From the IMG/VR virus record IMGVR_UViG_3300023184_004591, positions 1-64,000 of that record: a DNA stretch of 64,000 bases; one strand, 5' to 3'. Shown here one piece after another: positions 4,617-29,730 of the stretch. Both the position numbers and the translations under genes were made by a program. Position 1 is the stretch's first letter. Every line of letters starts with the position of its first letter. The notes under the pieces are model-generated. The model was given only the letters and a program-made list of their open reading frames with translations, ran no database searches and was not told where the DNA came from. This DNA is from a virus.

Positions 4617-5066
4617 TTACTTTTGGATAAATTCAGGGTAGAAATAATTAAAATTATTACCTGAAAAAATGTCAGTCAGGCCGTTTAGTATACCTTTTAA
4701 CTTTGGGCGTAGGTCTACGGTGTATCTTACCTTTGGCGGGTACACTTTAGCATCAAACCTTCTCTGACAAATTGTCAGGTCCCCAACCTTAATATAAAGG
4801 TTAAAATTTTCATCACCGTCAGTAATTGACGTATTTAAAATCTCTGGATTCTCAGAAATTTCGTATTTGTTGTCTAACATATAGACCACTGAACGCATTT
4901 TTAAATCATATTGTAACTCACGACATAACATATCGATATGGTCGTAAAATTCCTCAGATTTGTGTGCATTTTTGTTAAATCCTTTAACATTAAAAAAACG
5001 TTGTACTACAATGTTATCATTACACATTAATAGGAATTCAACTTTTGTTACATCTTGATCTCTCAT
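4617..5066 (-). CDS. Conserved-looking hypothetical protein in the replication operon
   Basis: 149 residues with no motif I can name. The sequence is mixed alpha/beta in look, with short beta-like runs (KVEFLLMCNDNIVVQRFF, ending before a basic KGFNKNAHK stretch) and a C-terminus rich in aromatic residues (GNNFNYFYPEF). It sits between the 5' nuclease gene (20 nt upstream) and the gp41-like helicase gene (32 nt downstream), so a role in DNA replication or repair is suggested by position alone. The start ATG is at 5066, with another ORF ending close upstream and no Shine-Dalgarno. No cysteine clusters or nuclease signature are visible. Confidence 0.75.
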   Translation of the reverse strand: MRDQDVTKVEFLLMCNDNIVVQRFFNVKGFNKNAHKSEEFYDHIDMLCRELQYDLKMRSVVYMLDNKYEISENPEILNTSITDGDENFNLYIKVGDLTICQRRFDAKVYPPKVRYTVDLRPKLKGILNGLTDIFSGNNFNYFYPEFIQK

Positions 5067-16787: not shown

Positions 16788-19700
16788 TTAATTAAATTTA
16801 ATTTTACCATCAAAGGTTTTTTCTTTATTATTCACATTCACATTTGAATATAAGTCTTTTATTACCTTTTTTTGTTGTGACGTTCCACTAACTTTTTTAT
16901 ATTTTAATCCAAACTTAACTTTATCATCAATTGGACTTGTTATTAGAGTTTTGTACAATGGATTATTTTTAATACCATCATATTTGGTTTTATTAAAATC
17001 AGTATATGGATTAAAAAGAGTTGCACACCCACTAACCGCAAGGTCAACAACTTTAGTAACTTCTTGTATATTACCATATTGACCATTAAGTATGAAAGTT
17101 TTTAATTCATTTCTACTATTTTCATCATTAAATATATTGGCCATAACTTGATAAAATCTATTTTTTTCATCGTTATTTACGATAATATCTCTTTGTTTTT
17201 CTACACCAGTCCCACCTAAACCACCACTTGCGTCATTAAACGTACATGATATTTTTTTATAAGGATCTTCATTTAAATATAATAAATCGTCTTTTTTCAC
17301 AACGTTTTCAGGCCCGTAAAATTCAATATGTTTATCTGTTATTTTTTTCAAATAAGTTTGTAACTGAGTAAATGAATCTGCAACTCCTGAAATATCATAT
17401 ACATCAGGTTCATTATTTGAATTCATTATTCCGTCAGTTTTTGATAGTACCAAATTTGCCTTTCTTATATATTGAATATAGTCCTGTTGTAATAAAACTA
17501 AATCGTTTACACTGTTACTAACATTTGTGATAAAATCAGGTTTAATTCCTGTTACATATTCTTTTAATTTATTTTCAATTTCTCTCTTGTCACTATTAGT
17601 TATAGATTGATCATTGTTAACAACTATTTGCATAAATGGATCGTTCCTTTGTGAAATATCCCCATTAACTTTATTAAATAATTTTTCTAACTTGTCCTCA
17701 ACCTCACTTGGTTTACCATAAATTGGTACTTCAATTTCAGGAGTAAACTCCGCAGTACCTTTAGAATAATTTTTATCTTTATATAATAGATCTAAAATAC
17801 CTATATTATAGTTTTTACCAATTGTTGCATTTGTATTAACATATGCCTCAAAATATTCTTTAGTACTATTCCAATAGTCGGTAACAAATTTAGTGTAATC
17901 AATATCTTCTTCACCTGATATTGTTCCAATTGCTTCACCACCTCTTTTTGGTTGTTGATTAACGACATTAGCGGTTGTTACCTTTGGTTGGTTAGCCAAT
18001 ATCTTCTCAACCATATATTTATCTCTCGCTTCAGTACTTTCGGTTGCCGTCGCTCTTTCGTCGTAAATTTCAGTATTCGCATAATAGTTAAACGATAATG
18101 CATTTTGTAATTCCTCAACAGGTTCTTTAAGTCCATGACCACCAATAAAGTTAAAGGCCATTGTCACTTTAGCAATCATCGGTTGTACACCAATACCTTC
18201 AGGGTTTAAGTCAAATGTAATAGGATCATATGTAATACTTAATGAGTTTGGTACAATCTTACTATTATAAAAGTCACCCATTCTTAAAATTAAGATCGGA
18301 GGTGCACCAAACGATGTGTTTAACGCATCATTATATTTTGGTCTACCGTCAGGTCCAATTATAGGAATTGTTTGACCAGGTCTCATACATTGATTTAAGA
18401 ATGTCAATCTCGCATTTAATCCCTCAGGTGTTGTTGAGTGGAACGCAGGATTGAAGTATTTAATCTTTTGTTTAATACTATCATATATCATAGGATCACT
18501 TTCTTTAATAACCTCAAAGTAATCACATTCTGAGAATAAAAATCTCAATATTTTTTTAGATATACCTTCTTTAATTTTTTGTTCAATCCTTAAATTAGGA
18601 CTTGGTTTAATTGTATTAGATGTATTACCAGGTGTTTCAACTTTTGAAGGGTCTGTTGTTGTTTTATCTGTCGTTACTTTTGGGGGTTCAACAGGAGTTG
18701 GATCAGGTGGAACCTTTGCTTCAATTTTAGTTAAAGCAACTCGTCTACAAGCCATTGCAGGTACTGACCACCATTGTGCCGCACTATTAGAAGATGCTCC
18801 CGCAATATCACCACCAGTTGGATTCACAGATGGGGTTGTGGTTATGTTTGTACTACAATTAACAGAAACACCATTTACGGGACTAACTTCCGCTGAGTTA
18901 TATGTGGTACCAGTTGTAGATGTACTAGAATTACCATTACCAACCGTTACAATTTCAGTCTCACCCTGTGTTTCAATTATAATTTTAAATTGTTTTTCAT
19001 CTAATTCACTTATAAGTTTATCACCAAGTTTTTGATTTTTAAACCATTTTTGTACGGTATCAACCCTTCTTTGTGATAATTTTTTATTATACCCTACTGT
19101 TGCAGGTGCCGATGCTGAACCTCTCAATGTTAATACAACTGAACCATTCTTATCTATTATTATTTCTTTTAATTTATCTAAGAAAACAGTTTTTAATTTT
19201 TCAAAATTATTTTTAATAACATTATTAAAAAATGTTTGCACACCTTCTTTTGTAAATTCTTGAGATCCCACATAAACTTTTGCAGGTGCCTTTGTCACAT
19301 ACGTTGTATTTTGTTTTGGAATATATGAATCGTACCAACTATCAAATGGTTTTGATGAGGTTGTGGCATATGTCCCATAACATTCAGGACAATCATTTTC
19401 AAAATAAAATGCGTAATTTATAAATTCTTTTAAAATATCCGAATCTTGTAATGTTGATGTTGCATTTGTTACGGTACTAGTATCCCCAACTTTTAATTGT
19501 TGCCCATCAGTACCTGAAGCATCACCCGTAGTAGTTAATTTAGAATCAACAGGTATTTCAAATGCAACCTGACCTAACTCTTCATTTGTTAATCTTGGGT
19601 TATTTAATATTTGTTGGTACGTAAATAAATCTCTTGTTGGTATTGTATTAAATTTAATACCCAATTCATACATATCGTATTTTGTACATCCCGCAAAGAA

Positions 19701-21839
19701 TGAATCAACAATTGAATCGACTCTTTGTTTTGCAACACCCGCCAATTGTTTCTGAATAATAGTATTCATAATTGCAGGGTGATCGACAACAATCTTCCAA
19801 CTTATACTACCCTTTCTTGAAGTGTTCTTATACGTATAAATTGGTTCAGGTCTACCCAAGAATGGAGTTTCTGAAAAGTTAGGCGTACTATCATCACTAA
19901 ATGAAATATCATATGGTGGAAACCACATGACTCTACCACCGTTTGGTCCTTTTTCACAAACAGGTAAATCATCGTAAGTAAACCCAGGTCTGTCTGAAGT
20001 TCTCCACGCTAAGTTCTCAATAGAGAACATATATTTTTTAACTTTGTTGTCAACAATGTTTGTTGATCCCGGATTCTTAAGTGGGGCAATGTTAAGATTA
20101 TATGTCTTATCTAAAACTGAATATGAGAATTTTCTACCTTCAGTTGTTATACCATCACTTTTTTGTAAGTCAGCATATGTGAAGTAAGGTGTGTCCTTTT
20201 GGAACACTCTACAGTACTCAATACCCGCTTGAGATCCATCGGTCTGATCCTTATAAGATAATACCATAGAACCCTTTGTCATCTCTTTGTACCCATCGTT
20301 GAATACCTTTGATACTTGGTTAATCGCATTACCTACGTGTTTTAATCTTGCTTGTCCTTGTACTTGATCAGCAGATTCAATAAGTCTTTGTGTTTTATCT
20401 AAGATTGAATCCCCTTTGAAATCAATATCCGTTGATTGGTATCTACCATAATCACTTTTAATTGTTTCAAATTCATTATCTAATCTTGTAGGGACCCCAC
20501 CAGGACCTACTTTAAATCCTGCGTTGTCTTTATATTTTGGTGATGTCCAAACAAATTGACCATCTATACCACCACCATCGGTGTATGATTTCCCTTTTAA
20601 ACCAAATTGTAATTGAGCTTCATTACCTTCGTATAGAATACCAAGTTCTTGTGGGCCATAAACAATAGTTTGTACTTGTCTACCATTTTTTCCAATTGGA
20701 ACTTGATTAGCAGGTGAATCAATTTGTGAAGGTTCTGAATTAGGACTACCTACATAATATCCACCACTTTGTGACTTATTTTGATCAAATAATCTATCAA
20801 TTGCAGTTGTTGCACCTTGTATAATACCTCTACTATATGACGGTCTATATTTGTTGTAATCTAAACTTGAAAATAATACTGATCTTTGTCCAAACCCTGT
20901 GTTTGCAACAAATATTTCAGAAGGATTCTTAAATTTATTTAAGATTGGTCCTAAAAATCCACCCGTTAAATTATTCGCAACATTTAACGCCGCCTCAGTT
21001 TGTGGGTTATCAATAAATGATTCATTAAAATAATCACCAGGGATAAACGATACGGGGAAGTAAGTTCCCGTTAATCTATTTGCCAATGTAACCGAAGCGG
21101 TTATTGGGTTCTCAGGTACCGTAATTCTCCAATTTTTTGTAAAGAATGGTTGTTTACCTGTTGCAACCATACTCGCACTAAACGGGTCTTGTAGTGAATC
21201 TAAATTAACACTTCCAACACTAGCTTGTAATATTTCACTTGCAATTCTCTCCTCAAATAAACTTTTAAGTTGAGCAGCACCAATCTTTGCTAAATAGGTA
21301 TCTTGAGATAATGGACCGTTACTTCCATTTGGGTTATTACTGAAAATTATTTCGTATGGTGAATATGATGATGTTACAAACGTTGAGGGATCCCAATATG
21401 GCGTATACATTTTAGGATTACCAACCACATCGGTTATAATAACTAAATCTTTGTATCCACCTTCAGGTCCATAAATATTTTGTACGTATGCGGCATCAAT
21501 ATAAAACTCATTAACTAAATCTAATACTGTGTCGGTAGGTGCGTATGGTCCTGAATTTGAGTCCACAGGTAGTGGTGCTCCCGGCACAGAATATTTCCCA
21601 TCGTAGCCACCTTCAGGTCCGTATTCATTAAGCGAATACATACTATCGGCAAGTTGATTTGTAGAAATTAAACCATTTGGTGAGTCAATAACATTTGCAA
21701 CAGATATATTAGTTTCGTAATTAACACTATTACTACTAGGAGAATAAGATCCTGGTACCGAATATGGTTGTAAATTACGGGCTAATAATATATCCCTAAA
21801 ATTTGACGAAGATGCAAACGATAATGTACTATCTGACAT
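16788..21839 (-). CDS. Giant baseplate protein (1683 aa) with an OmpA-like domain
   Basis: The N-terminus has two YGPEGGY motifs (residues about 72 and 124). Residues about 870-960 resemble the OmpA C-terminal peptidoglycan-binding fold: VVLTLRGSASAPATVGYN, then KLSQRRVDTVQKWF. The conserved Arg is present, but the Asp that contacts diaminopimelate is replaced by Ser/Ala. A Thr/Pro-rich linker (about 965-1090) separates this from a C-terminal half that again looks like a tail-tube/baseplate fold (RPGQTIPIIGPDGRP, ILILRMGDFYNSKIVPNSL). It lies between the tape-measure and gp53-like genes, so baseplate location is likely. No single T4 homologue is evident. Confidence 0.82.
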   Translation of the reverse strand: MSDSTLSFASSSNFRDILLARNLQPYSVPGSYSPSSNSVNYETNISVANVIDSPNGLISTNQLADSMYSLNEYGPEGGYDGKYSVPGAPLPVDSNSGPYAPTDTVLDLVNEFYIDAAYVQNIYGPEGGYKDLVIITDVVGNPKMYTPYWDPSTFVTSSYSPYEIIFSNNPNGSNGPLSQDTYLAKIGAAQLKSLFEERIASEILQASVGSVNLDSLQDPFSASMVATGKQPFFTKNWRITVPENPITASVTLANRLTGTYFPVSFIPGDYFNESFIDNPQTEAALNVANNLTGGFLGPILNKFKNPSEIFVANTGFGQRSVLFSSLDYNKYRPSYSRGIIQGATTAIDRLFDQNKSQSGGYYVGSPNSEPSQIDSPANQVPIGKNGRQVQTIVYGPQELGILYEGNEAQLQFGLKGKSYTDGGGIDGQFVWTSPKYKDNAGFKVGPGGVPTRLDNEFETIKSDYGRYQSTDIDFKGDSILDKTQRLIESADQVQGQARLKHVGNAINQVSKVFNDGYKEMTKGSMVLSYKDQTDGSQAGIEYCRVFQKDTPYFTYADLQKSDGITTEGRKFSYSVLDKTYNLNIAPLKNPGSTNIVDNKVKKYMFSIENLAWRTSDRPGFTYDDLPVCEKGPNGGRVMWFPPYDISFSDDSTPNFSETPFLGRPEPIYTYKNTSRKGSISWKIVVDHPAIMNTIIQKQLAGVAKQRVDSIVDSFFAGCTKYDMYELGIKFNTIPTRDLFTYQQILNNPRLTNEELGQVAFEIPVDSKLTTTGDASGTDGQQLKVGDTSTVTNATSTLQDSDILKEFINYAFYFENDCPECYGTYATTSSKPFDSWYDSYIPKQNTTYVTKAPAKVYVGSQEFTKEGVQTFFNNVIKNNFEKLKTVFLDKLKEIIIDKNGSVVLTLRGSASAPATVGYNKKLSQRRVDTVQKWFKNQKLGDKLISELDEKQFKIIIETQGETEIVTVGNGNSSTSTTGTTYNSAEVSPVNGVSVNCSTNITTTPSVNPTGGDIAGASSNSAAQWWSVPAMACRRVALTKIEAKVPPDPTPVEPPKVTTDKTTTDPSKVETPGNTSNTIKPSPNLRIEQKIKEGISKKILRFLFSECDYFEVIKESDPMIYDSIKQKIKYFNPAFHSTTPEGLNARLTFLNQCMRPGQTIPIIGPDGRPKYNDALNTSFGAPPILILRMGDFYNSKIVPNSLSITYDPITFDLNPEGIGVQPMIAKVTMAFNFIGGHGLKEPVEELQNALSFNYYANTEIYDERATATESTEARDKYMVEKILANQPKVTTANVVNQQPKRGGEAIGTISGEEDIDYTKFVTDYWNSTKEYFEAYVNTNATIGKNYNIGILDLLYKDKNYSKGTAEFTPEIEVPIYGKPSEVEDKLEKLFNKVNGDISQRNDPFMQIVVNNDQSITNSDKREIENKLKEYVTGIKPDFITNVSNSVNDLVLLQQDYIQYIRKANLVLSKTDGIMNSNNEPDVYDISGVADSFTQLQTYLKKITDKHIEFYGPENVVKKDDLLYLNEDPYKKISCTFNDASGGLGGTGVEKQRDIIVNNDEKNRFYQVMANIFNDENSRNELKTFILNGQYGNIQEVTKVVDLAVSGCATLFNPYTDFNKTKYDGIKNNPLYKTLITSPIDDKVKFGLKYKKVSGTSQQKKVIKDLYSNVNVNNKEKTFDGKIKFN

Positions 21840-21903: not shown

Positions 21904-23847
21904 TTATGGTGTTGTAAGTAACCCTGAGTTTGAAGTTGATGACCATTTTTCAAATGATGCCTTTTTATTAGGGTCTTGTAAAAACCTATTCATATATTTG
22001 TTCCATGATTCTTCTTCTTGAGCATTCATTCCAGTTCCACCAAATTCAACAGTATGTTTAACCTCACCACTAACAGTTGTTTTTGTTTCCTTAGAACCAC
22101 CTGTTTTGAATTGTTCGATAAGTGATTCTATTTGTTTTGTGAATGGTGAATTAGGATCCATCACTATTTGGGTTGGTTGTACACCAAGTGGTGAATATAT
22201 TTTACTTACCTCATTAGTTACATCCCCCACTGTTTTAACCCCAGCAGTTCCCGCACCTACAACAATATTACCCGCAATTTTTACAAGACTATCTTTAACC
22301 GAAGTTAACGATGATTCAACAGTTTCCCAAGTACTCTTACCTTGAAGGAATCTAACCATTTCTTTTTCTAATGGACTAGTCATCTCCGTTGCGGCACCTC
22401 TTACATTTTCAGTTGTGATACCTTGAGTTAAATTTGTGGTTGTTATTGCTGCGGCTTTATTTATAACATTATAGAACCTATCCATCGTTGGAGTAGTTGC
22501 CTTACCAAGGCTTACCGCCACTTTACTACCACTTAAAGATTTGTTAATTTGTTCTAAAGTAGTTAATTGATCTAAAGCAATTTGTTCAATTGTTTTATCT
22601 TGGTTGGCTTGTTGTTCTCTTAATTTAGTAATTTGATCCGCAGTTAAATCTTTAACATTAATGTCATCCATTTTACCCGTAATGTCATTTTTAATTTGGA
22701 GTACCGCTTCACCACCTTTCATTTGGGCCATATTAGCAATTAACATTTTATCCTCCTCAGATGACGCCAAACTTGGGAATTTAATTTTACTCATCTTCAT
22801 GTCCAAGTCCGCACTCTTAATTGACATATTTGCTAATTCAGATGCACTCATACCCATCGCTTCAGCAACTTCTCTTAACCTACGTTTTGCACCAGGTAAA
22901 ATTTCAAAACCTGAACCATCCGCTTTCAATTTGGTAAATTCTTTAGAAACGTTAATCATTTCTTTTTGTAGTGCTTCAGGATCATTTTGAGCCAAATCCA
23001 TCGCCTTCAATGGGTCTAATAATGCACTACTTGAAACACCCAAACGTTGTAACGCTGCCGACATCTCAATTGCCTTTTCAGGTGACATTAATTTTTCTGC
23101 AAGGTCAAATGTTTTACCCATATCAATCCCTAACATAGTTGCTTGTGAGGCCATCTTAGCCAAACCTTTTACCCCCGTATCAAAATTAAATAAATTAATT
23201 TGTTTTAAATTACTAACAACTAAACCTGAAACTGCCTGAACATTAACACCAACACTTTTAGCATAATTTGCAACTTCAGCCATTCTATCACCAACATCAT
23301 ATAGTGACATACCAACACCTTTAAATTCCAACGCTAATTTACTTGCACTTACACCGGCAACATTAGACGCCGCCGCCATCTCAACAAGAGCCTCTTTACC
23401 TAATGAAGTATTAATACCCAATTCCTGTGGTATTTCTGTCATCGCCTTTAATGCCTTATCTTCACTAACCCCAAGTTTGATCATTTCAGGTAACGCATCA
23501 GCAATAGTTGTCTTCATTTCAGCCATTCTAGCCTGACCAAGACCCAACGAATTTGCCATTTCTTGAGCCTTATCCCTTAAATAATTTGCCCCCGTAAAAT
23601 TTGTTGGATCCGCAGCGTTTTGAAAGTCCTTAAGTACTTGGGTTAATGCAACTCCATTTTCAGTAAGACTACCTGTAACCTCAGTTATGTACGTGTCTTC
23701 AGCACCTAAATTGTCACTAGTAACACTAGATTTTTTAGTACTTTTTTCCCCTTCAGATTTACCTTCATTACGAGCATTAGAAACAATTTTTTCTAATTTT
23801 TTAAATTGTTCAGCACTTAAACCTTTAAAATCATCTAATTCACCCAT
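21904..23847 (-). CDS. Tail tape-measure protein
   Basis: 647 residues, mostly Ala/Met/Lys-rich amphipathic helix, as in tape-measure proteins that set tail length inside the tube. The middle (LGINTSLGKEALVEMAAA, VNVQAVSGLVVSNLKQ, AAQLGVS-type repeats such as AALQRLGVSSSALLDPL) matches the helical minor tail/TMP pattern. The length is similar to T4 gp29 (590 aa), consistent with a T4-size tail. It follows the baseplate/chaperone-like pair and precedes the baseplate genes, the usual TMP position. No peptidase or lysozyme domain is visible. Confidence 0.75.
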   Translation of the reverse strand: MGELDDFKGLSAEQFKKLEKIVSNARNEGKSEGEKSTKKSSVTSDNLGAEDTYITEVTGSLTENGVALTQVLKDFQNAADPTNFTGANYLRDKAQEMANSLGLGQARMAEMKTTIADALPEMIKLGVSEDKALKAMTEIPQELGINTSLGKEALVEMAAASNVAGVSASKLALEFKGVGMSLYDVGDRMAEVANYAKSVGVNVQAVSGLVVSNLKQINLFNFDTGVKGLAKMASQATMLGIDMGKTFDLAEKLMSPEKAIEMSAALQRLGVSSSALLDPLKAMDLAQNDPEALQKEMINVSKEFTKLKADGSGFEILPGAKRRLREVAEAMGMSASELANMSIKSADLDMKMSKIKFPSLASSEEDKMLIANMAQMKGGEAVLQIKNDITGKMDDINVKDLTADQITKLREQQANQDKTIEQIALDQLTTLEQINKSLSGSKVAVSLGKATTPTMDRFYNVINKAAAITTTNLTQGITTENVRGAATEMTSPLEKEMVRFLQGKSTWETVESSLTSVKDSLVKIAGNIVVGAGTAGVKTVGDVTNEVSKIYSPLGVQPTQIVMDPNSPFTKQIESLIEQFKTGGSKETKTTVSGEVKHTVEFGGTGMNAQEEESWNKYMNRFLQDPNKKASFEKWSSTSNSGLLTTP

Positions 23848-23876: not shown

Positions 23877-24065
23877 TTAAGTTTTGGGTGTATTTTCCTC
23901 CACTATCTTATCTAAAAGGTATCTCCTAATATAGGTTGGGAGCCTTAAGAACTCATTATATGATGTCCTTAAGAATTTTGCCAAGTAATAAAATTCGTCT
24001 AATAAAAATTTTGAGTGGTTAGAAGAAAGGCCGAAAAAACTCCACCCCAAAGCTGATGCTAACAT
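23877..24065 (-). CDS. Small tail-assembly (chaperone-like) protein overlapping the gp26/51-like gene, possibly a frameshift extension
   Basis: A 62-codon frame overlapping the last 47 nt of the 254-aa gene. Downstream of the overlap it encodes FLLDEFYYLAKFLRTSYNE followed by a LPTYIRRYLLDKI segment, which looks like a real small phage tail-assembly protein. It has a single ATG (24065) preceded at 9 nt by AGGAG, so internal initiation is possible. Alternatively, a +1 (equivalently -2) shift on the TTTTTT run at 24034-24039 would fuse it to the 254-aa protein. The gene order tube, this pair, tape measure is where tail chaperone G/GT frameshift pairs usually sit. Confidence 0.6.
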   Translation of the reverse strand: MLASALGWSFFGLSSNHSKFLLDEFYYLAKFLRTSYNEFLRLPTYIRRYLLDKIVEENTPKT

Positions 24066-24783
24066 CGACTTTTTCTCCTGATGGGGTGTAAACTGTTTTC
24101 CTTAGATCCAATCTCGGTTCGTTTTCTTTAAGGAAATTTCTTATGAACTTAGAATCACCAATTGGCATATTTTGACAAAATACACTTATTTCATTTCTAT
24201 CAGGACTACCATTTAACTCCAAAATAGTTTTATTTAACCTTGTTGTTATTGTTGGTGCGGTATATCCTGCAGGGTATGAGTCAATTATTTTTGCAATTTC
24301 AATGGTGTCATATAAACTTAACATTTTAAGTTTAACATCCGCCTTTGATTGTGGTAATTTAATAGTAAATGTTCCATCTTCATCAGGTTGTACTTTAGGT
24401 TTTGTAAGATTTAACTCATCCAACATAATAGATGTTTCGAAAGACTGACCATTACTTGGGTCAATAGTTGTAATTTTATATTCAGGTCCAAAAGATGTGT
24501 TACGTAAAAATAAAAGTATTGCTTCAATATCACTTTCTAATAATTCTTCAGGTCTAAGATCTCTTTCGTAAAGTTTATTCCTTAATAAAGGTAATACAAC
24601 ACTCTCATTAATTGTCCTACGAGAATCAATATTAACTAATATGTTCTCATCACTTGCGGTTAAGTAACCAACCTTAACACTTTTCTTTTTTGATTTATAG
24701 AATAAACCACCTGAAGGTAGTGTTACCACATCATGTGGTAAGTTAAAATCCATTTGCCCATGAGCAGCCGTGTCTTGATCCAT
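24019..24783 (-). CDS. T4 baseplate-family protein (gp26/gp51-type) or tail assembly chaperone
   Basis: 254 residues. The N-terminus has the family signature LPSGGLFYKSKKKSVKVGYL, then TASDENILVN and the LLRNKLYERDLRPEELLESD region, as in T4 baseplate-hub-assembly proteins of the gp26/gp51 group. The C-terminal half is beta-rich. T4 gp26 and gp51 are 208 and 249 residues. The gene lies directly between the tail tube and the tape measure, so it may act as a tail assembly chaperone. The last codons contain TTTTTT just before the stop; see the overlapping small gene. Upstream is an A-rich leader with no clear Shine-Dalgarno. Confidence 0.7.
   Translation of the reverse strand: MDQDTAAHGQMDFNLPHDVVTLPSGGLFYKSKKKSVKVGYLTASDENILVNIDSRRTINESVVLPLLRNKLYERDLRPEELLESDIEAILLFLRNTSFGPEYKITTIDPSNGQSFETSIMLDELNLTKPKVQPDEDGTFTIKLPQSKADVKLKMLSLYDTIEIAKIIDSYPAGYTAPTITTRLNKTILELNGSPDRNEISVFCQNMPIGDSKFIRNFLKENEPRLDLRKTVYTPSGEKVDVSISFGVEFFRPFF
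24034..24039 (-). other. Candidate slippery run at the gene overlap
   Basis: GAG TTT TTT CGG in the 254-aa frame. A +1/-2 shift here avoids the stop at 24019 and continues for 50 codons into the small-gene frame. It is not the canonical -1 heptamer. Homopolymer slippage or simple gene overlap are both possible. Confidence 0.35.
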
Positions 24784-24869: not shown

Positions 24870-25358
24870 TTAGTATACTAAAATACAACGGTCCATACGA
24901 ATACTTGAAGTGATTCCTGCAATCTTATCAGAGTCATATGATAATGAACCACCATCATATCCTGTTAACCAAGCTCCTTCTAAAATCCATTTCTCAACAA
25001 CAACTCCTGTTGGGTCTAACATTTCCAAATCCACATTTTTCTTGTATCCTGCAGCATAACCCATACGACCTGTAACAGACTCCGCACATAGACGAATCCA
25101 TTCCATAACCGCTTGAGAAGCCGAAGGTCCAATTGGATCTCTAAACTTAACTGAAATTTCTTCCCAATTGAATCTACCTGCAACATATGTTTCAGTGTTC
25201 AAGAAAGGAATATTAACTGAAGCGATTTTTAATTTAGGTCTCGAAGTACTTTCCACATACCACTCATTAATACCAAGTGATGACGGGAATCTTAGAATCC
25301 AACGGTTTTCACGTTTAGGTTCGTAAGGAATAGGCATTTTCATTAACAAATCAGCCAT
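24870..25358 (-). CDS. Tail tube protein, T4 gp19-like
   Basis: Polymerises into the inner tube through which DNA passes. It has 162 residues; T4 gp19 has 163. The gp19-family layout is visible: basic/aromatic N-terminus (KRENRWILRFPSSLGI), beta strands with VNIPFLNTETYVAG, a W-EEISVKFRDP segment, then MEWIRLC and the C-terminal strand set (LEMLDPTGVVVEKWIL, GAWLTGYDGG). It lies downstream of the sheath gene but is separated from it by a HAD-family gene, and has its own upstream TATTTAT element and a strong terminator. Confidence 0.92.
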   Translation of the reverse strand: MADLLMKMPIPYEPKRENRWILRFPSSLGINEWYVESTSRPKLKIASVNIPFLNTETYVAGRFNWEEISVKFRDPIGPSASQAVMEWIRLCAESVTGRMGYAAGYKKNVDLEMLDPTGVVVEKWILEGAWLTGYDGGSLSYDSDKIAGITSSIRMDRCILVY

Positions 25359-25478: not shown

Positions 25479-26318
25479 TTAATATAATTTCTTTTCTCCT
25501 CCTGAAGTTAAATAGGTCTTTAATATATTATCTTCTTTTTTATCAAAATGTTTCTTCATAGTTTCTACATTTCTTACATCATCATCTGAAAATCCAATAA
25601 ATGGTGTAAAGTAGTTACTAATCTTGTTTTTCATAAATGCCTTTTCTTGTAATGAATGAGATAGTTTTCTCACATAACTCACAAATTCCTCCATTGCATT
25701 TATTTTTCCTTGTTCAGGGTTAGTTGCGGAACCTTCTCCGAAAGACACAGGGTGAAAACGACACATATCTAAGTAAGATCGTATTAGTTGATCTTTAGAT
25801 AATTTCTCTTCATCCGCCAAATCTCTATATTTTAAAAGATTTTTTGCTAACTTGTTTGAATCCAAACCATGTTTATTCTGTTTAATTAATCTATAAACAC
25901 CCTCTTTTAACATGGAAGGTGTATGTCCTCTTGCCGTAACAATTGCAAATATTGACCCATTATTAATTGCCTCCACAAAATCATTCCATGCCGGACCTGT
26001 TGGTGCCGTCATTGCATCTTTTAAAAATTGTTTGTCCCCCAATACTCCGAAATCTCTGAAAGGTTCTTTATCGAAAGATACTATGGTATGTCCTTCATAT
26101 TTAAAAGGTTCTTTACCTATATCAGTTCTATATTCCGCAAAATCTTCTGTTGACATTCCAACACTTTTACCTTTATCATCTTTAAGATAAATTTTTGTTG
26201 GCATAAACATAAGATTATCATCCCAGTCAAATGCGTAATATTTCATTACAGGAGTTTGTCTTTCTTCTATGATTTCGCTAATAATTTGTTTAACAATAAC
26301 TTTATGATAATTTTTCAT
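25479..26318 (-). CDS. HAD-superfamily hydrolase-like protein inserted between sheath and tube genes
   Basis: 279 residues. HAD landmarks are visible: motif I FDWDDNL (Asp nucleophile D31 and D33), motif II IVTARG (Thr), and motif IV GFSDDD. A basic central helical region lies between II and IV. These residues suggest a Mg-dependent phosphatase or related phosphotransferase. The substrate cannot be read from the sequence; polynucleotide, nucleotide and sugar phosphates are all possible. In T4 the sheath and tube genes are adjacent. Here this gene sits between them with its own TATTTAT element and a terminator upstream, so it looks like an added cargo gene. Confidence 0.78.
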   Translation of the reverse strand: MKNYHKVIVKQIISEIIEERQTPVMKYYAFDWDDNLMFMPTKIYLKDDKGKSVGMSTEDFAEYRTDIGKEPFKYEGHTIVSFDKEPFRDFGVLGDKQFLKDAMTAPTGPAWNDFVEAINNGSIFAIVTARGHTPSMLKEGVYRLIKQNKHGLDSNKLAKNLLKYRDLADEEKLSKDQLIRSYLDMCRFHPVSFGEGSATNPEQGKINAMEEFVSYVRKLSHSLQEKAFMKNKISNYFTPFIGFSDDDVRNVETMKKHFDKKEDNILKTYLTSGGEKKLY

Positions 26319-26388: not shown

Positions 26389-29300
26389 TTAGATATTATC
26401 AAACGATGCTCCTGTTGGAGTGATGTAGAATGTTATATCAATAAACTCTAAAGAACGAGTTGGTTTGATATAGATTTTACCTACCATTTGATTTCTGTCT
26501 AAGTCTTCAGTGTCACTTGAAACAGTAACTCTAAAGTCGTATAAACCTCTATCTCTTCTGATCGCATCTAAGATCGGATTAACCGCATTTAAGAAGTCTT
26601 GTCTTACTTGTTCGTCGTTTTGATCGAATAACAATCTCACAGAAACTGCAGAAATCAATTTACGAGCTTGTAGTAATAATCTTCTTACGTTAATTCTATC
26701 AAGTGCAGATTCTCTAACTTGAAGAGTTTTGTTACCCCAAATTACTGTACCTACATCAGAGAAGGTTGCAATTGGGTTGATTCTTCCTTGATAAAGAGTA
26801 TCTCTATCTTCTTGAGTCAACTTCTTACGTGCTTTGATTGAGTTTACAATACCTCTTGTGTAACCTGCCGCTGCGAACCAAGGGAATGCAATGTTATCGG
26901 TCAATGCCAAGTTTCTTGTTACCTCAGCCGTTGCTGGGATATAGATTTGAGTATTGTTTACTGTATCACGAGTTAATACCCAAGGGTAATAAGTTGCCGT
27001 GTAGTTAGAGTCAATTCCCGTTTGTTCTAAGTTGTCAACCGCTTCTTGTGGGTAGATTAATCCATCACCACCTGTAGTTGTAGGTAAGAACAAATTGTAG
27101 TCAGGTGTTGTTGTAATGTACAATGAGTCAGCTCTGTTGTTCTCAATCATGTCGATTGTTGCCTCAACTAAGTCACTATTATTTACATAATCAATACCAG
27201 GTGATACAAATACATTGATGTTCACCGCCTCAGGGTTAGAGAATGTGTTAACCCCTAATAAGTAAGCGTAGTAGTCAGTATTTGCAAAACTTTGTGTTCC
27301 ATCACCGATTGAGATTTGTTTAAATGCTCCCCATCCTGTTGCTGATGGATATCTTGGTGAAGGACAAGCTCCGTTCAAGAAACCATTTCTACCAAGCACA
27401 TATCTGTCTCCGTTTGTTCTGTACTCTCTGTAGATATCCCATCCGTCAAAACCACCGTAGAACATTGTTGTGAATTTTCTTGAGTAAATTCTGTAATATG
27501 GACTTGTTTCGTTTGTTGGTTCTTGTTGGAATGTAGCATCACCAACGTAGTATTTAGGCGTTCCACTTGTTGTAAATGCCGGTCCGATTTCAATCACACT
27601 AGCATCTTTATCCATGTGGAATCCTCTTGTTTGGTATGACCATTCAACCCCATCAACATTACATAAATCGATTGGTGCTCTTTTTCCTTTATATTGGAAG
27701 AAGTCAGGGTCAAATCCGATATTGTTAGAGAAACCTAAATAAGTTCTTCTTACATTATCCCCATTTGATCTGATAGCATCATCGTTACCATTTGTGAAAC
27801 CGAAAGGTGGATCATAAACAATCTCTCCTGGGTAATCATATTTAGTTTTATATACAGGGAATGGAGGTGTTACACCATCGTATTCTCTGAATGTATACCC
27901 ATCAAAACCACAAGGTAATGAATCAACAGGTGCGTCTTCATTCATTTCAACCATTACAAATTTAGAAATCAATGCGTATTCTCCGTCTAATGAACCGATT
28001 TTTTTACCGATAAAATTATTTTGACTTGGATCCATACTACAATTTGTAAATTTCTCTAAAACTGTAGGGTTAGCATCTGAATCATAGAAGTCTCTTACGA
28101 TTACGTCAAACGTTCCATTGGAGAATGACATATTAATAAGTGAAACTTTAATTTCAGAGTTTGCTGAATTACCATCAGAAATTGAGTAAAATCTGAACAA
28201 GTTAAATACTTTAGTACCTCTTAACTCAGAAACAATCCAAGGCGTATTAGGTGATTGGTATCTATCTAAGTACCATCCAATACTATCTTGTTGTCCACTT
28301 TGTGCTGAATCTAACGCAATTAATTCTGAACTCAAACCTCTAATGAAACCTTTGTTCCATCCGTAGTTTAATAACGCTTGGAATCTTTCCTCTAAGAATA
28401 AAGGAACATTCTTTCTTGGTTTTTGGAAGTTAGTAGATCCAAATACTTTAGAAATGTATTGAGAATCTGAAGTTGCAAATGATGTCTCAAAAGAGAATGA
28501 AGTTCCATCATCATTTGTTACATTAACAACGAATGGTAAATATGGGTTTTTAAGAACACCTAAATATTGTCCTGACATATTTAAATTTACGTTATTGATG
28601 TTTGTAACTTCAAACACAGGGTTTGTTGAATTTTCATATGTTGCAATACCTCTTGATCTTAATGTACCTACAACTAAATTATCAAACTCAGTGAACGATG
28701 TTCCAGTATAATAATAGATTGAACCATTAATTGTACCTGTATAACAATTAGTATTAACTGCGGTTGGTGTAGGTGTTGGTGATGACATAGGTGTTGCCGT
28801 AGCACATGGGTTAACTGCCGACGGTGTTGGTGTCGGTGTGAATGCTATTGTTGTTGTTGTTGTAACTGGATTTAAACTTAAATCGTCAACATAAGCAAAG
28901 AAGGAGAATCCTGAATAACTTCCATTACCATTGTTAGAAAACAATGAATAATACCAAGGATCATTATATGGTGATTCATAACTAGTTTCAGTACTTGATA
29001 CTGAAGGTACACCATAAACATTAGTTTCGTTAGTGAATACCGATGATAAAACATCATAATCAGGACCATAAATTGTTCCAAAATAATCAATTGTGTTAGT
29101 TTGTGCAGTAAATGGGTTAGCATCTGTTAACACATCAAAAACCATATTATTGATTTGAGTTTCTAGTGTTGATACATCTCCATTAAATTGTTCAAACTGA
29201 GTAGTTAAGATATTTTCAATCTCAGCAGGGAAATTAGTTGTATAACTAATTGTTGATTGTGAGTTTGAACACCCTGTAAATTCCACAGTATAAGGTATAA

Positions 29301-29730
29301 TCTTATAATCAGCAGGATCACAATAAGGTAAACAATCAACTATTTGTGGTGTCTCACAATAAAAGTCTACAGTAGTAGGGTCAACATTCGCTTGAGTTAT
29401 GATAGACCAAGACGGTCCCGCATCATACCCAGAAAGTCCTAAAACTCTCGTTACGAATAATTGATTAGATTGTTGTAAATATGATTTTGCGATATAAGCC
29501 GCTTCATACTTAGGGATTTGTGTGTTTATGAATTTTTCAGCGGATGTACCTCCGAAGTAAGTTTGAAATTCCTCATAATTTTTGATGAATATCGGTTCAA
29601 AAGCAGGACCCTTTAAAGTTTCACCTGCAATACCTAATGTGGTAACCCCCACACTTTGTGCTACGAAACTTAAATCCACTTCAGAAGTATATACACCAGG
29701 TGATACGAATACTTTACCGTTAGTTGCCAT
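26389..29730 (-). CDS. Tail sheath protein, T4 gp18-like, enlarged and carrying a Thr/Pro tract
   Basis: Forms the contractile sheath. It has 1113 residues against 659 in T4, so large insertions are present. The N-terminus is typical (FVSPGVYTSEVDLSFVAQ, then TTLGIAGETLKGPAFEP). The conserved C-terminal region is intact: TVIWGNKTLQV, ALDRINVRRLLLQARKLI, then the final beta strands. Residues about 288-327 contain TTTTTIAFTPTPTPSAVN and a further SSPTPTPTA tract, a surface-insert type sequence similar to those in the fibre proteins. The gene is a single unit between a TATTTAT element and a strong terminator. Confidence 0.94.
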   Translation of the reverse strand: MATNGKVFVSPGVYTSEVDLSFVAQSVGVTTLGIAGETLKGPAFEPIFIKNYEEFQTYFGGTSAEKFINTQIPKYEAAYIAKSYLQQSNQLFVTRVLGLSGYDAGPSWSIITQANVDPTTVDFYCETPQIVDCLPYCDPADYKIIPYTVEFTGCSNSQSTISYTTNFPAEIENILTTQFEQFNGDVSTLETQINNMVFDVLTDANPFTAQTNTIDYFGTIYGPDYDVLSSVFTNETNVYGVPSVSSTETSYESPYNDPWYYSLFSNNGNGSYSGFSFFAYVDDLSLNPVTTTTTIAFTPTPTPSAVNPCATATPMSSPTPTPTAVNTNCYTGTINGSIYYYTGTSFTEFDNLVVGTLRSRGIATYENSTNPVFEVTNINNVNLNMSGQYLGVLKNPYLPFVVNVTNDDGTSFSFETSFATSDSQYISKVFGSTNFQKPRKNVPLFLEERFQALLNYGWNKGFIRGLSSELIALDSAQSGQQDSIGWYLDRYQSPNTPWIVSELRGTKVFNLFRFYSISDGNSANSEIKVSLINMSFSNGTFDVIVRDFYDSDANPTVLEKFTNCSMDPSQNNFIGKKIGSLDGEYALISKFVMVEMNEDAPVDSLPCGFDGYTFREYDGVTPPFPVYKTKYDYPGEIVYDPPFGFTNGNDDAIRSNGDNVRRTYLGFSNNIGFDPDFFQYKGKRAPIDLCNVDGVEWSYQTRGFHMDKDASVIEIGPAFTTSGTPKYYVGDATFQQEPTNETSPYYRIYSRKFTTMFYGGFDGWDIYREYRTNGDRYVLGRNGFLNGACPSPRYPSATGWGAFKQISIGDGTQSFANTDYYAYLLGVNTFSNPEAVNINVFVSPGIDYVNNSDLVEATIDMIENNRADSLYITTTPDYNLFLPTTTGGDGLIYPQEAVDNLEQTGIDSNYTATYYPWVLTRDTVNNTQIYIPATAEVTRNLALTDNIAFPWFAAAGYTRGIVNSIKARKKLTQEDRDTLYQGRINPIATFSDVGTVIWGNKTLQVRESALDRINVRRLLLQARKLISAVSVRLLFDQNDEQVRQDFLNAVNPILDAIRRDRGLYDFRVTVSSDTEDLDRNQMVGKIYIKPTRSLEFIDITFYITPTGASFDNI

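Follow-up and report, generated by a model that had tools for sequence, protein, structure and literature searches.

A probable +1 frameshift yielding two tail assembly chaperones from one gene in a contractile-tailed virus lineage

Gene order and identities at the chaperone locus

We analyzed a stretch of 64,000 nucleotides (hereafter the window; positions 1 to 64,000 of the IMG/VR record IMGVR_UViG_3300023184_004591), to which all coordinates below refer. A 254-aa protein encoded on its minus strand matched PF12322 (T4_baseplate, the T4 gp26 family) with an E value of 2.1e-9 and 37.9 bits (curated cut-off, 24.5), as well as phrog_150, described as "baseplate hub" (E 2.2e-15). Placed between the tube and tape measure genes, this gene was identified as coding for a tail assembly chaperone of the gp26 type (PF12322). 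The features of the locus are as follows.

24870–25358, minus strand: tail tube protein, gp19-type, upstream of the 254-aa gene (phrog_4542, E 1.1e-22)
24019–24783, minus strand: TAC-N, the short form of the gp26-type tail assembly chaperone, 254 aa (PF12322, phrog_150)
24063–24065, minus strand: ATG of the mechanically called 62-aa ORF, judged not to be a working start (stop directly after it in 13/79 rows)
24040–24048, minus strand: G-rich GGGGTGGAG directly before the slip site, a possible Shine-Dalgarno-like stimulator (from conservation)
24034–24039, minus strand: UUU UUU, codons 249–250, with codon 250 as the proposed P-site slip codon (UUU to UUC; from conservation)
24031–24033, minus strand: CGG, the almost unused 0-frame codon that would be in the A site at the moment of the slip (from codon counts)
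23877–24032, minus strand: +1-frame C-terminal domain (GLSSNHSKFLLDEF...), stop included (dN far below dS; family homologues)
21904–23847, minus strand: putative tape measure protein, 647 aa, downstream (from position and annotated counterparts)

A family search with the 647-aa protein gave no convincing match; a tape measure is annotated at the corresponding position in L085, L088, and L089. The order tube, PF12322 protein, small ORF, tape measure was found both in the window and in named phages, matching the place that the first-pass annotation had recognized as typical of tail chaperone pairs.

The overlap and the proposed slip site

The positions given by that annotation hold. On the minus strand, the 254-aa ORF runs from 24783 to 24019 and the 62-aa ORF from 24065 to 23877, and the second begins inside the first; counted from the start of its ATG, the upstream stop codon begins 44 nt and ends 47 nt further on. 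The run TTTTTT lies at 24039–24034, and the frames of the two ORFs differ by +1, which is equivalent to −2. A shift would indeed fuse them: when TTTC is read as one Phe step, a single 301-aa protein results, and reading through the 254-aa gene meets an in-frame TTTC once only, at codon 250. The proposed +1 site, UUU_UUU_CGG, therefore corresponds to 24039–24031 on the minus strand. No canonical −1 shift of the X_XXY_YYZ type fits the window, whose −1 frame closes 20 nt beyond the stop codon.

Conservation of the site in close relatives

The window clade consists of 80 IMG/VR loci with the 254-aa protein, of which 78 hold the gene end (L059 and L061 are cut), and with the window itself they give 79 rows. 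While the 254-aa proteins of this clade diverge by up to about 30%, the stretch TTT GGG GTG GAR TTT TTT CGG CCT TTC TTC TAA is unchanged, its sole variation being GAG/GAA (30 and 15, respectively, of the 45 unique genes, at codon 248). The T-run is invariant in 79/79 rows and in 45/45 unique genes, and TTT GGG GTG is likewise invariant in all 45. Within codons 244–254, nine of the 10 degenerate columns with an invariant amino acid are also codon-invariant, compared with 17/118 in codons 1–241, where no other 11-codon stretch holds more than three. The freeze of codons 251–254 would follow from dual coding alone; if the shift takes place at codon 250, dual coding would not freeze the third bases of codons 245–247, 249, and 250. 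The conservation of the site exceeds chance.

The DNA past the upstream stop is conserved as coding sequence in the +1 frame, with dN far below dS between close relatives (for example, pN 0.02 and pS 0.69 for L002; pN 0.23 and pS 0.55 for L062), and the other-frame reading of the same DNA lacks this pattern. In 13 of the 79 rows (four unique overlap sequences), an in-frame TAA or TGA directly follows the ATG, and the +1 frame is intact in all 13. The first-pass annotation had held that loss of the T-run together with retention of the ATG and its Shine-Dalgarno sequence would speak against a frameshift. We found the reverse, since the T-run is kept in 79/79 rows and the ATG is stopped in 13/79.

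The wider family and initiation as an alternative

We extended the comparison to 291 sequences, of which 289 had a tblastn match (L083 and L084 lie outside the database) and 282 a complete 0-frame stop. Scans of 80, 80, and 38 further loci, together with named phages, gave 140 representatives at 90% aa identity, which are related by descent, so that counts among them are not independent trials. In 126/140 the +1 frame stayed open for 120 nt or more beyond the stop, and these formed the +1 set by this rule; 10 others fell on a −1 list and four were truncated contigs (L105, L161, L162, L234). L080, placed on the −1 list, belongs to the window clade, is open in both frames, and was transferred to the +1 set. 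With L080 and the four truncated contigs as five borderline rows, the set comes to 131. Counts out of 127 refer either to the 131 minus four rows without UUU_Y or, for frame opening and start codons, to the 126 plus L080. For L134, the translation with TTTC read as F shifted at a TTTC earlier than the site, and that translation was used in no alignment.

An in-frame UUU_Y was present in the overlap of 127/131 representatives, against a background of 1,242 among 28,962 seven-codon windows (4.3%) elsewhere in the same genes. The most frequent forms were TTT TTT TGG (66 rows), TTT CTT TGG (20), TTT TTT CGT (9), and TTT TTT CGG (7), besides rarer others, and 24/131 carried UUU_CGN. The four representatives without UUU_Y (L274, L277, L279, L280) belong to a subgroup ending in ELFNPS, whose only shared +1 site is CCC_A. 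In the SP-15 group, a +1 shift could also take place at NCC_C sites.

In 9/127 rows the +1 frame opens just 2 nt before the first UUU, and because of this the shift can be pinned to the UUU pair. An ATG for the +1 frame is absent in 82/126 representatives. Up to 15 nt past the stop, 41/126 have no ATG, GTG, or TTG at all; even when the count is extended to 60 nt past the stop, 23/127 have none.

These counts bear on the possibility that the 62-aa frame is a separate gene for a free small protein, translated from an overlap-coupled start at the ATG at 24065 or the TTG at 24050. The elements for such a start exist: an AGGAG (24079–24075, minus strand) stands 9 nt before the ATG, the TTG is conserved in 79/79 window-clade rows, an ATG, GTG, or TTG from which translation of the +1 frame might in theory begin is present in 85/126 representatives, and the gp51-type ORF downstream of gp26 in KVP40 and Bellamy has its own ATG. 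Against it stand the stop codons behind the ATG in the window clade, the 41 representatives without any of the three start codons, the persistence of the UUU pair although UUC would serve equally in frame 0, and the fused form that T4 carries as gp51. We consider a separate gene very unlikely. Ordinary initiation at the ATG itself, which the first-pass annotation had raised as the alternative on account of the AGGAG, is rejected on the 13 stopped rows and the 82 representatives lacking an ATG, even though the AGGAG is where it was said to be. Its central suggestion, a frameshift between tail-assembly genes, gains support from the conserved T-run and from the +1 frames of the wider family that are open in the absence of an ATG.

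Direction of the proposed shift and comparison with T4-like relatives

A forward slip of one base and a backward slip of two lead to the same frame, and both options had been left side by side in the first-pass annotation. Strict +1 re-pairing is possible in 131/131 representatives, while −2 re-pairing at the Phe or CUU codon is possible in 97/131. Two site types separate them: at TTC TTT CGT (e.g., L082, L258, L260) and at TTT CTT/CTA TGG (e.g., L085, L183, L205), UUU re-pairs with UUC after a +1 slip, and there is no sound −2 re-pairing. Because some sites re-pair after +1 and not after −2, the direction for the family is taken as +1, and by parsimony this extends to the window, although −2 pairing is possible there.

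A −2 slip at TTTTTT has a precedent in phage Mu, which uses a −2 frameshift, and in the window such a slip of codon 250 would re-pair perfectly on UUU and give one Phe more (VEFFF-GLSS) than a +1 slip. As a general mechanism it is disfavored by the site types at which base pairing allows only +1, and for the window we regard it as very unlikely. PMC5009743 adds that a slowly decoded codon in the A site carries more weight in +1 than in −1 shifts.

The T4-like relatives differ in direction. KVP40, Bellamy, and L285–L290 have a T_TTT_TTC or T_TTT_TTT heptamer and an open −1 frame. In KVP40 and Synechococcus phage Bellamy, the separate small ORF after gp26 corresponds to phrog_634. T4 gp26 and gp51 both belong to PF12322, and only gp51 continues into phrog_634; T4 gp51, being PF12322 plus the C-domain, has the composition of the shift product and looks like a hard-wired long form. 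The statement that T4 is not known to use a frameshift stands, as T4 is listed as an exception in PMC5009743; what can be added is that both of its products are encoded separately, as gp26 and gp51. Vladimirov et al. 2022 is cited for gp26 and gp51 as the T4-like tail chaperones in PMC10885494 and PMC12846349, one of which describes some T4-like phages in which a short gene is accompanied by a long fused one, and the other poly-T −1 signals in T4-like TAC-N genes.

We built an unrooted N-domain tree of 72 sequences, with 25 randomly chosen representatives of the immuto/Mel-JY01 type and all others; it placed the T4-like −1 group and the +1 group apart at a support of 100/100. A single −1 row, L090 (LR756511, about 4,650–4,930), falls inside the +1 group; it carries its own T_TTT_TTC and encodes its C-domain in the −1 frame, likely a reversal of shift direction.

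Sequence context of the proposed slip site

The codon following the UUU pair in the window, CGG, is used twice among 28,128 codons (56 ORFs of the 95,292-base record), and UUU followed in frame by CGN occurs once in the record, at the slip site only. We found no tRNA genes in the 95-kb record, including any phage-encoded tRNA for CGG. In most relatives the codon after UUU is UGG, which is not rare in this record, and for this reason a slow CGG is not a general driver of the shift; the rare CGG after UUU is a local feature.

Shine-Dalgarno-like words lie within 15 nt of the site in 51/127 rows, against a background of 11.4%, and the Gly codon three before the site is GGG in 42/70 cases in the family, against 128/1,564 elsewhere. 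Downstream RNA folding showed no excess in 126 rows, with a mean z of −0.57 compared with −0.53 for the upstream control.

Another candidate is a +1 shift at GGG_G within the G-rich stretch, on codon 246, four codons ahead of the proposed site; it would give FGWSFFGLSS. Re-pairing there would be perfect, and no codon of TTT GGG GTG varies within the window clade; however, in 9/127 relatives the +1 frame does not open until the position 2 nt ahead of the first UUU, the wider family does not retain the Gly codon, and the GAG/GAA exchange at codon 248 would alter the +1 product (S/N) if it were read. We give this earlier site only a slight chance. An assembly or sequencing error splitting one gene, for which nothing but the homopolymer speaks, is already refuted, as the same split recurs in 79/79 window-clade rows from many contigs and in named isolates, and its probability is negligible.

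The C-terminal domain and the predicted fused protein

The +1 peptides of the window and of the immuto and Mel-JY01 groups share the pattern FGL..eYR..L..eIf.L....GGf...evY.MP..lR.fY (28 chosen rows). As a profile, the window/immuto C-domains matched the C-domains of the SP-15 group (20 chosen rows) at 97.6% in hhalign, and the gp51-type C-domains of KVP40, Bellamy, and T4 (three rows) more weakly, at 88.8%. Single C-domain sequences gave no match to phrog_634 (0/28 and 0/20).

The structure model of the fused protein had a mean pLDDT of 84, with lower values in the C-domain (57–75). Its best two matches in VIA-align were YqbN (Z 5.3), which we take to be a chaperone of the tail assembly kind, and the HK97 tail assembly chaperone (Z 5.1), both middling values. 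The HK97 chaperone was also the first PDB row in Foldseek (E 0.11), and a search of predicted viral structures matched gp26-type proteins, including that of SP-15. The likeness of the predicted fold to YqbN and the HK97 chaperone is suggestive only.

Interpretation

Our preferred reading, to which we assign a probability of roughly 0.88, is that one gene encodes two tail assembly chaperones, the long form arising through a +1 slip at UUU_UUU_CGG. The frameshift is very probably real and +1 in direction, judging from sequence comparison, and the 62-aa frame makes most sense as the C-terminal portion of the long form. This reading draws on the anatomy and conservation of the overlap, on a +1 slip fitting throughout where −2 fits only in part, on the rarity of the codon, and on homology. 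Most ribosomes would end at 24019 and release the 254-aa short form, comparable to lambda gpG or T4 gp26. We infer that the shift occurs with an efficiency that would let a minority slip one base forward, with peptidyl-tRNA-Phe on codon 250 re-pairing from UUU to UUC while the almost unused CGG awaits decoding; the G-rich stretch may assist. Reading would restart at GGC and produce the long form (TAC-NC, 301 aa), ...GVEFF-GLSSNHS.... If lambda gpGT and T4 gp51 serve as a guide, the tape measure protein would be coated by the short form, and tube subunits would be recruited through the C-terminal domain of the long one.

We also lean, with less assurance, toward a broader proposal: a large, old contractile-tailed lineage would set its chaperone ratio by a +1 slip at UUU_Y, opposite in direction to the −1 shift of its T4-like sister group, and the window clade would extend to a bacterial virus the UUU_CGN +1 class, hitherto discussed in connection with eukaryotic viruses, with CGG, a nearly absent Arg codon, as a built-in brake metering the long form.

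A frameshift in tail chaperone genes is of a known kind, and the window would present a variant of a known mechanism. The general tail chaperone shift, exemplified by lambda gpG/gpGT (PMC5009743), has in common with it the place before the tape measure gene and a short and a long form made from one gene, whereas the lambda shift is −1 and the window combines +1 with another protein family (PF12322) and another slip codon. T4-like gp26/gp51 have a homologous N-domain; T4 itself uses two genes, and KVP40, Bellamy, and L285–L290 have the −1 heptamer in place of the +1 site of the window lineage. The chaperones of Pakpunavirus and Andersonviridae, as described in PMC12846349, share a T-run near the end of TAC-N and a downstream ORF before the tape measure gene, and shift by −1 at GTTTTT, in the opposite direction to the window.

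Two +1 systems are closer in mechanics. In prfB, a short spacing separates the Shine-Dalgarno sequence from the shift site. That site is CUU_UGA, according to PMC10885494; prfB and the window would share a +1 P-site slip of a YUU codon with a G-rich stretch just upstream, although the A site holds a stop codon in prfB and CGG or UGG in the window family. For influenza A PA-X, with UCC_UUU_CGU, PMC3498833 reports that mass spectrometry showed the +1 direction. UUU in the P site, followed by CGN, and the +1 direction are common to PA-X and the window site; the PA-X class is described there for eukaryotic viruses, while the window comes from a bacterial virus, with no homology between the two.

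Within the literature searched, three features appear to be new: a conserved +1 UUU_Y site among gp26-type genes, the contrast of this site with the −1 site of T4-like relatives, and UUU_CGG with a nearly unused codon. We found no +1 site for the gp26-type family in the open-access full-text literature searched, and PMC7077304, on Flavobacterium phages, has no occurrence of frameshift or tail assembly. If the reading holds, one homologous chaperone family would obtain its long form by a −1 shift, a +1 shift, or a duplicated fused gene, a clean natural comparison for studying what made the direction change and how the ratio is set. The reading would also offer a bacterial UUU_CGN/UUU_UGG site for the mechanics of +1 frameshifting, and account for the small "hypothetical proteins" that directly precede tape measure genes, whether annotated or overlooked (Mel-JY01, Flavobacterium phage immuto, Bacillus phage SP-15, LIS04).

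Other observations at the locus

The sheath protein (26389–29730, minus strand) has 1,113 aa, long for a sheath, with an internal Thr-Pro-rich stretch (TPTPTP...); sheath domains match its C-terminal end only. Between the sheath and tube genes lies a 279-aa protein (25479–26318, minus strand) with no Pfam match. Downstream of the tape measure gene, a 1,683-aa protein (16788–21839, minus strand) has a weak OmpA-like match at residues 888–971 (E 0.002, below the cut-off). In Rhodothermus phage RM378 (L087, 3998–4877), the chaperone pair is kept with the site TTT TTT TGG despite a different gene order, and the tube gene lies downstream of the pair on the opposite strand.
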